Origin: Phormidesmis priestleyi BC1401
Lineage (GTDB): Bacteria > Cyanobacteriota > Cyanobacteriia > Leptolyngbyales > Leptolyngbyaceae
Length of the DNA stretch: 64,000 nucleotides
Assembly (NCBI RefSeq): GCF_001650195.1
Contig: NZ_LXYR01000011.1
Location: forward strand, 1-64,000
Direction of reading: 5' to 3'
Shown: positions 58,078 through 59,442 of the stretch, piece by piece
Position numbering within the stretch: the first letter of the stretch is position 1
Layout: each line of letters starts with the position of its first letter
Program-made: the position numbers and the translations under genes
Notes under the pieces: generated by a model
Seen by the model: the letters and a program-made list of their open reading frames with translations, nothing else
Told to the model about the DNA's origin: nothing
The model's database searches: none

Positions 58078-58496
58078 CTGTTGTCCTCAAAGCGGCTAAG
58101 TTTGCTGTTATGAGTATAACTGTTCCTACCGTAGATAAAGAAATTTACAACCTACAGCTATTAATCATCTCATAGACCATCTTCAATCACTATCTTTGCC
58201 AAGGACTTAAGCTGCCTAACTTCTTTTTAGGGAGAAACTTTCTCCATATCATGCCAAAACGGGTAGATAAGCAGATGGTTTCCGCATAACACTCCAAATC
58301 AGGTAGATAGATAGATAGATAGATAGAATCTTTCTGCATAGTATGCTCATGCGGATGGATACGCGGAAAGGTTCCGCCTATTTGCAGAATTCAGTACAGC
58401 TGACAGCGATCGCTCATCCTTTGCCTGCTGCGCTCATTTTTTGACACGATCGTCCCATAAAAATTAAACTCTCGATCGCCTCTCTCCAAAGACAGG
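58078..58496. other. AT-rich spacer upstream of the manganese riboswitch
   Basis: About 420 bp without a convincing gene. It contains the GATA microsatellite at 58304-58326. The end of the stretch should hold the promoter for the downstream exporter; TATAAT at 58497-58502 makes a good -10 box, but no matching -35 element was found at normal spacing. Confidence 0.5.
58304..58326. repeat. GATA tetranucleotide microsatellite
   Basis: Nearly six consecutive TAGA units in intergenic DNA, preceded by a diverged GTAGATAAGCAGA stretch. Rare in this kind of genome and prone to length change. Confidence 0.9.
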
Positions 58497-58512
58497 TATA
58501 ATAACCGTAGTT

Positions 58513-58690
58513 TGAAGGGGAGTAGCTGCTGGTCTCAACACCAGCCCACTTGAATCAACATACTGGTGATGAGCCTGGTTCAAGTGATAAGCAGAGGTCG
58601 GAGATTAAGGATTCAGAGAATCGAGTAGAAAAACTTACTCTTTCTGAGACCCAAAACTTGAACCCCAACTTGTAAGCGAGACCTTCACTG
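58513..58690 (+). ncRNA. yybP-ykoY-type manganese riboswitch
   Basis: The leader carries both conserved ends of the yybP-ykoY aptamer: GGGGAGTAGC (58517-58526) and GCGAGACC (58676-58683). The outer helix TGAAGG (58513-58518) pairs with CCTTCA (58682-58687). Several self-complementary arms lie between them. TATAAT at 58497-58502 would start transcription just before it. The aptamer binds Mn2+ across the two conserved loops. The downstream gene is a Mn/Ca exporter family member, the expected target. A small TCACAT/ATGTGA hairpin follows at about 58693-58708 and may be part of the expression platform. Confidence 0.85.
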
Positions 58691-58785
58691 AGTTCACATC
58701 TGATGTGAGCTTGGTGGAGTCGTTGCACCCTCATCAAGCCCACTCAGAAAATCTCTACACTGTTGATTCTGAGGAGCTTGAGAGC

Positions 58786-59442
58786 GTGTTAACTGCGTTT
58801 ACTGCGGGTCTATTATTGATCACCGTTTCTGAATTGGGCGACAAGACGTTTTTCATTGCAATGTGTTTGGCAATGCGCCATCGTCGCCGCTATGTGTTTA
58901 CCGGAAGCGTGGTCGCACTCGCTGCCATGACCATTCTGTCGGTTTGTTTGGGACGGGTGGTGTCACTGTTGCCCAAAGACCTAACGCATTACGCATCGAT
59001 TTTGCTGTTTGTCGCGTTTGGCATCAAGCTGCTCTACGATGCCCATCAAATGTCACCTGAATGTCGCGATCACACATTAGCAGGCGAAGATGATTGTGTT
59101 GAATGTGCTTCTGAAGCAGAGCGAGACGCGATCGCTGCCGTCACTCAAGCCGAAGCGAACCTCAAACAAAAAACGCCCTTCGCGATTTGTTTAGAAGCCT
59201 TTGTGCTGGTTTTTGCGGGTGAGTGGGGCGATCGGACTCAATTTGCCACGATCGCTCTGGCGGCTGCCAACAATCCTGTCGGGGTGACATTGGGCGCAAT
59301 TGCCGGACATACAATCTGTACCGCGATCGCGGTTGTCGGTGGCAAACTGATCGCCGGACGCATCTCAGAGCGAACCGTCACCCAGTTGGGCGGCATCCTA
59401 TTTCTACTATTTGCCGTAGTCGGATGGTTTGAACGCCCGTAG
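58786..59442 (+). CDS. mnx: GDT1/TMEM165-family manganese exporter (UPF0016, Mnx/PAM71-like)
   Basis: About 218 aa from GTG 58786, which has GAGGAG 9 nt upstream and begins at the usual VLTAFTAGLLLITVSELGDK. Starts back to 58705 would run into the riboswitch platform. The family's two cation motifs are both present: ELGDKT in the first helix and EWGDRT in the fourth (about residue 150 of this start). A hydrophilic loop rich in Cys/Glu/His separates the halves. The cyanobacterial member Mnx moves Mn2+ out of the cytosol. The riboswitch context supports Mn2+ as substrate here. Confidence 0.88.
   Translation: MLTAFTAGLLLITVSELGDKTFFIAMCLAMRHRRRYVFTGSVVALAAMTILSVCLGRVVSLLPKDLTHYASILLFVAFGIKLLYDAHQMSPECRDHTLAGEDDCVECASEAERDAIAAVTQAEANLKQKTPFAICLEAFVLVFAGEWGDRTQFATIALAAANNPVGVTLGAIAGHTICTAIAVVGGKLIAGRISERTVTQLGGILFLLFAVVGWFERP

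Follow-up and report, generated by a model that had tools for sequence, protein, structure and literature searches.

Riboswitches of the yybP-ykoY class bind Mn2+ through an adenosine of loop L3 and five phosphates. The members in the E. coli mntP and alx leaders are translational switches. Alternation among 1:2, 2:3 and 3:4 helices is known from the trp leader attenuator. Oxygenic photosynthesis brings a high demand for Mn, and excess Mn is harmful to cells. For the X. oryzae construct used in single-molecule work, the accessible text of PMC6754395 places GAGACC in the 3' half of L1/P1.1 and describes P1.1 as the switch helix, which Mn stabilizes. The accessible part of a review (PMC7380456) counts a UPF0016 member under yybP-ykoY in 328 of 333 screened bacterial strains having one. 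A 2013 comparative study (PMC3766115), in its accessible sections, assigns yybP-ykoY to over 75% of 24 bacterial groups; its genomes include 14 cyanobacteria, and an earlier prediction of the class in cyanobacteria may be contained there. A term search did not find the word riboswitch in the accessible main text of a 2019 review of cyanobacterial Mn homeostasis, and the available portion of a 2024 Mn-excess study presents little as known beyond the ManSR two-component system. Our literature search, outside which most subscription journals lay, found no published description of the element or its platform in cyanobacteria. The class is known; the cyanobacterial variant is new.

Here we describe an element that is probably a cyanobacterial yybP-ykoY Mn2+ riboswitch turning translation of a UPF0016/GDT1 (Mnx-type) exporter ON at high Mn. 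It was found in a 64,000-nucleotide stretch of Phormidesmis priestleyi BC1401 DNA (the window), where the leader of a GDT1 gene occupies 58497-58790; all features given below lie on the forward strand. The leader begins with a probable promoter -10 box, TATAAT (58497-58502), located just before the aptamer as a sequence-only reading of the window had pointed out. A TATAAT-like box with at most one mismatch lies near the element in 75 of 97 related leaders, compared with 10 of 97 equal control stretches farther up. A two-hexamer promoter scan did not list the box in the window, which therefore has no good -35 partner. Short tandem TAGA units are present at 58304-58327, upstream of the leader.

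Folded alone and with no prior, nucleotides 58511-58690 adopted P1.1, the L1 loop, P1.2, P2, P3 and P4 at -56.6 kcal/mol (z -3.30), and none of 200 shuffles folded equally well. The de novo structure has the four-way P1-P2-P3-P4 junction with L1 in P1 and L3 in P3, except that the first three L3 bases, open in the family consensus, are paired. In P1.1, the 5' strand TGAAGG (58513-58518, strand 0) pairs with CCTTCA (58682-58687); this is the closing helix that the earlier reading had recognized, as it had both conserved aptamer ends. The aptamer letters GGGGAGTAGC and TCAACATAC are present. L1 consists of six bases on its 5' side (GGAGTA, 58519-58524) and four on its 3' side. The P2 hairpin spans 58528-58545, and the P3 arm (58547-58586) carries the L3 loop TCAACATAC at 58555-58563. 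It is followed by the P4 arm (58587-58673), whose length varies among species: the distance from L3 to GACC ranges from 46 to 167 nt across those leaders, 90 of 96, that show the L3 pattern. The aptamer ends at 58676-58687 with the 3' strand of P1.2 (GC), the 3' side of L1 (GAGA) and the 3' strand of P1.1 (CCTTCA), the segment marked by GCGAGACCTTCA. The family letters of L1 (GGGGAGUAGC) and L3 (UCAACAUAC) and the 3' GAGACC are all found in the window, and the L1 and L3 letters align to the RF00080 consensus.

A default Rfam scan of the window reported two tRNAs only, without RF00080. The Infernal search with RF00080 that the earlier reading had suggested, run at a permissive threshold, matched 58505-58640 with 30.5 bits and an E value of 1.4e-6 in a 551-base search (3.2e-6 when the whole genome was searched). 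The default scan was silent because this score lies below the gathering score of 45 bits, which is an operational cut-off and no structural feature. No other Rfam family gave E < 1 in the leader. Thus the expected covariance-model hit misses the curated cut-off, yet its E value and the structure indicate that the element is real, and the four-arm de novo fold and the L1 and L3 letters likewise uphold the assignment to yybP-ykoY. The 3' end of the Rfam alignment at 58640 was rejected as the end of the aptamer, since GC-GAGA-CCUUCA at 58676-58687 is conserved and was recovered by the unbiased fold. At E ≤ 0.001, RF00080 matched 52 of 115 relatives and 42 of 386 phylum genomes, in large genome searches whose stricter filters lose weak matches; the curated cut-off was reached by none of the 115 relatives and by none of the 386 sampled genomes. 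The gathering cut-off is strict, as only two of 14 control genomes attain it while five have a match. The survey suggests that a branch of a well-known class is hidden by the Rfam cut-off.

To follow the element across the phylum, we used R1, a covariance model built from 20 leaders, all of which are among the loci later matched. Under the same stricter filters, R1 matches 61 of the 386 phylum genomes, belonging to 41 of 143 genera. Within the genome of the window it scores 154.9 bits for the window element and 140.6 bits for a second copy on contig C105; three further matches have E values between 0.09 and 0.7, and two of the three fall opposite these same elements, on the reverse strand. Sub-threshold RF00080 matches at which R1 is silent were seen at G130:C45:9125-9281, G130:C100:2056-2202, G144:C16:2119-2229 and G158:C174:15048-15224, and may represent further hidden branches of the class.

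A scan of GTDB contigs by a strand-1 pattern gave at least 116 matches in at least 115 stretches, all judged cyanobacterial; some organisms are shared between these contigs and the genome set (L029 and L166, for example). Among the matches listed, an R1 element was present in 115 of 115 stretches, three of them clipped by the locus edge, and by a strict two-motif test 96 of the 116 pattern matches have the aptamer core no more than 250 nt away. A stand-alone platform lacking the aptamer was rejected, as every one of the 115 listed loci has an R1 element. For counts across loci, seven duplicates (L032, L033, L035, L037, L038, L039 and L041) were dropped and 98 de-duplicated loci were used. R1 matches 98 of the 98, as the selection dictates, because RF00080 or R1 had served to find every one of them; neither the gene downstream nor platform strands 3 and 4 entered into that choice.

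Compensating changes are seen in the helices of the aptamer. In a MAFFT alignment of 27 leaders, picked by exact L1, L3 and P1 letters (L004, L012 and L023 were left out for lacking them), 95.9% of the cells of P1.1, P1.2, P2 and P3 are paired, compared with at most 40.7% in slid controls. The same helices hold 54 two-sided cells versus 15.7 in shuffles (0 of 500; the shuffles ignore relatedness, so that this fraction, here and below, is no probability). All six pairs of P2 show two-sided change, with 87.7% of cells paired, as do seven of the eight pairs of P3, with 98.6% paired. A reading of L1 and L3 as 'invariant' was dropped, the 27 leaders having been preselected by those very letters, and conservation of P1, L1 and L3 was therefore judged on the 98 loci, aligned by R1 for the letter and P1.1 counts. 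There, GGGGAGTAGC is exact in 87 loci, TCAACATAC in 76, GCGAGACCTTCA in 75 and the 3' motif GCGAGACC in 76; L3 differs from TCAACATAC in 22. P1.1 is paired in 547 of 588 cells, its inner five pairs in 98 of 98 loci and its outer pair in 57; seven loci have a G to A change with the pair retained, and P1.1 variation is small, a caveat on covariation in this helix. Four loci (L087, L088, L100 and L101, family f5) have an altered L3 together with different strands 3 and 4, and L048 and L081 are altered in L3 only. Family f5 may represent a third variant, in aptamer as well as platform.

Downstream of the junction lies a platform of four strands. Strand 1 (58680-58697) overlaps the 3' strand of P1; strand 2 (58705-58721) is Shine-Dalgarno-like; strand 3 (58730-58747) is an anti-Shine-Dalgarno sequence; and strand 4 (58769-58784) contains the Shine-Dalgarno GAGGAG at 58771-58776. 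Strand 2 and the Shine-Dalgarno stretch read GAGCTTGGTG and GAGCTTGAG in the window, and a similar likeness, GAGCUUGGUG to GAGCUUGAG, is seen in many leaders, so that strand 3 is able to pair with either. Conservation was assessed in a MAFFT alignment of 96 leaders with 94 distinct rows. The 1:2 helix is paired in 93.7% of cells versus at most 48.9% in slid controls, with 28 two-sided changes compared with 8.8 in shuffles (0 of 500); its further pair types are unexceptional (18 versus 16.7; 71 of 500 shuffles as high). For the 2:3 helix, 86.8% of cells are paired versus at most 52.1% in slid controls, with 49 two-sided changes compared with 20.2 (0 of 500) and 22 further pair types compared with 19.5 (15 of 500 as high). 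The 3:4 helix is variable (72.4% paired versus at most 47.5%) and covaries weakly: its 50 two-sided changes compare with 37.3 in shuffles (2 of 500), several slid controls being equal or higher, and a two-sided change occurs in 14 pairs, where shuffles give 12.7 (116 of 500 reach that number). R1 does not extend to strands 3 and 4, and their conservation is therefore no consequence of how the loci were chosen. Both 1:2 and 2:3 are well kept, strand 2 is common to them and each base can be used only once, which indicates alternation. Two conjectures of the sequence-only reading thereby fall into place: its hairpin near 58693-58708 is part of one of the two competing conserved helices, and its GCTTGGTG/CATCAAGC pairing (58709-58716 with 58732-58739) is part of a conserved competing helix.

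The 3' strand of P1.1 thus has a downstream competitor in the 1:2 helix of the 94 rows, and the competition is also apparent in folds of truncated transcripts ending before the Shine-Dalgarno sequence. These were computed for 10 leaders initially and then for 96 of the 98 (L089, of TerC type, and L074, with a broken frame, were set aside). When strand 1 is free, 1:2 is the dominant helix in 50 of the 96; with the first 8 nt of strand 1 removed, mimicking its capture by P1, 2:3 prevails in 95. In all, 49 leaders flip from 1:2 to 2:3 and none does the reverse, a direction partly built into the test since trimming strand 1 must weaken 1:2; when the letters after strand 2 were shuffled, 22 of 96 flipped. 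In the window leader the flip is complete: strand 2 pairs 16.4 nt with strand 1 and 0.3 with strand 3 in the first state, and 0.2 and 13.2, respectively, in the second. Full-length equilibrium folds of 89 of the 98 leaders (nine had no usable start, Shine-Dalgarno sequence or motif by the rules of the script) showed no switch, the mean unpaired fraction of the Shine-Dalgarno sequence being 0.20 with strand 1 free and 0.23 with strand 1 taken (0.27 and 0.28 in the shuffled control). This fraction rose by more than 0.2 in five leaders and fell in one. These folds lend no support to a simple thermodynamic switch and point instead to a choice made during transcription or to the energy of the aptamer being absent from the model.

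The gene controlled by the element in the window would be the 218-residue UPF0016/GDT1 protein encoded at 58786-59442, an Mnx-like Mn2+ exporter by family. PF01169 matches it in two stretches (E 4.2e-48; 162 bits against a cut-off of 27), and it has two ExGD(K/R)(S/T) motifs, ELGDKT and EWGDRT. NCBIfam gave no name for this protein or for that of the second copy. The start had been placed at GTG 58786 in preference to an earlier open frame; GAGGAG at 58771-58776 agrees with this choice, and in relatives the spacing between element and start is similar. An Mnx-like exporter as the target also holds beyond the window. A UPF0016-motif ORF lies downstream in 96 of the 98 loci, mostly starting 46 to 74 nt past the match; in L074 the frame is cut short not far beyond the motif, and L089, whose genome has 7% contamination, is followed by a TerC gene. 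Of the at least 116 strand-1 pattern matches, 109 have a UPF0016-motif ORF downstream, four lie too near the locus edge, two precede MntP and one a cytochrome b561-type gene. MntP is a Mn exporter family unrelated to UPF0016/GDT1, and with these two further loci the element stands in the leaders of Mn-homeostasis genes of two kinds. Riboswitch and MntP-family efflux gene (PF02659) stand together at L168 7193-7988 and L201 5361-6174, in one case on a Pseudanabaena plasmid.

Of the sampled genomes, 88 have four or more GDT1 domain matches, and 60 of these carry the element (the other 28 lack it); it is present in 0 of 89 with two. The 61st genome with an element, G150, is the TerC case and has no GDT1 match listed. 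These counts loosely associate the element with full-length exporters of two domains rather than with half-size proteins, of which Hmx1/2 are reported, in the accessible part of the source, as Mn importers in Synechocystis; G184, with two GDT1 matches and yet seemingly a single full-length gene, weakens this reading of domain counts.

Several copies have unusual neighborhoods. The second riboswitch copy of the same genome (L002, G000:C105, 1105-1922) lies upstream of a 190-residue GDT1 gene on a 6.7-kb contig, with a transposase-like ORF about 500 bases away. Its protein has ELPDKT instead of ELGDKT, no GGAG is found near the start, and the folded leader shows an extended pairing of strands 3 and 4. 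A plasmid search with this copy found a single record, from Chroococcidiopsis, which includes a GDT1 gene; on this plasmid, typed conjugative, the riboswitch and gene occupy L240 2500-3371 next to transposase genes, perhaps as a mobile Mn-tolerance cassette. In L169 (358-1278), one copy directly precedes the cytochrome b561-type gene (PF01292) and another, with GDT1, follows 1.1 kb on. In Synechocystis salina, mnx has a similar b561 gene behind it (L172 4899-5297), and b561 is a possible further target in Mn homeostasis.

These elements suggest a model in which ligand, polarity and translational control are taken from what is known of the class and from the genes downstream. By analogy with solved relatives, docking of L1 and L3 by Mn2+ would stabilize P1.1 (0:1). 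At high Mn, strand 1 would be held in P1.1, allowing 2:3 to form and consume the anti-Shine-Dalgarno strand; GAGGAG would then be open to the ribosome. With no Mn, 1:2 would form and leave strand 3 to strand 4, and the resulting 3:4 helix would hide the ribosome site. The model requires a kinetic choice, presumably made while the leader is being transcribed. On the whole, we consider it likely that cyanobacteria possess a Mn2+ riboswitch subclass of their own, unseen at the Rfam cut-off: a conserved four-strand co-transcriptional switch (P1, 1:2/2:3/3:4) in which strand 2 imitates the Shine-Dalgarno sequence and strand 3 is common to both pairings. For many cyanobacteria it would be the Mn-excess sensor missing so far; it would act on the translation of full-length Mnx-type exporters, at times also of MntP, and would travel with these genes, also on plasmids.

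The same aptamer might instead act on transcription, by intrinsic or Rho-dependent termination. Studied relatives are, in the accessible parts of PMC6754395 and PMC11087558, transcriptional ON switches in which P1.1 opposes a terminator. The window leader, however, has no intrinsic terminator: the sole terminator-like site in 58400-58830 (58793-58807) is within the coding frame, and the Shine-Dalgarno sequence lies within the last of the conserved strands. We consider transcriptional control unlikely. A family relative whose ligand has changed to another divalent ion is the least probable alternative. The low Rfam score and the L3 alterations of some loci would agree with it, and GDT1, whose Pfam name is divalent cation/proton antiporter, may carry other divalent cations; yet the L1 and L3 letters are kept exactly in most loci (87 and 76 of 98), and the element also precedes MntP, the unrelated Mn exporter family.

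It is very unlikely that the same parts work with reversed polarity or without switching, leaving the exporter constantly low or constantly on. The Shine-Dalgarno sequence is indeed mostly paired in both full-length equilibrium cases, and the mnx transcript of Synechocystis 6803 is reported, in the accessible part of the source, as unaffected by Mn excess. Among five genomes taken as Synechocystis, however, one has a convincing element and four do not, and four have a full-length Mnx relative. With the element this rare in probable Synechocystis genomes, the 6803 result is irrelevant unless that strain has it. Two competing helices with compensating changes would also be unexpected if one structure mattered, class members described in the accessible literature are ON switches, and an OFF switch on an exporter appears physiologically unlikely. 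The reading we favor remains a translational ON switch responding to Mn2+. If true, such an RNA sensor before the exporter would be a direct and testable answer to how excess Mn is sensed in much of the phylum, and its pair of helices that exclude each other, both with compensating changes, would offer a good example from nature of a translational switch built from several strands.

Compared with RF00080, the cyanobacterial element has the same four arms, the same GGGGAGUAGC and UCAACAUAC loops and the same P1.1 switch helix with 3' GAGACC, and it likewise sits before Mn exporter genes. It differs in being below the cut-off in 386 of 386 genomes, in its variable P4 and in a conserved platform of its own; moreover, the Rfam alignment stops at 58640 whereas the closing strand here reaches 58687. 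Like the E. coli mntP and alx switches, it would act at the ribosome site to turn a Mn-related gene ON; here the platform is a four-strand chain, common to most cyanobacterial copies. As in the X. oryzae and L. lactis transcriptional switches, going by the accessible parts of PMC6754395 and PMC11087558, a downstream strand contests the 3' strand of P1.1, which Mn stabilizes there and would stabilize here; their competitor is a terminator, whereas here it is a hairpin without a U-tract that would free the anti-Shine-Dalgarno strand. 

The succession of mutually exclusive helices is that of the trp leader. There the driver is a ribosome on the leader peptide, whereas in the cyanobacterial leaders a metal aptamer would drive the chain and the Shine-Dalgarno sequence ends it.
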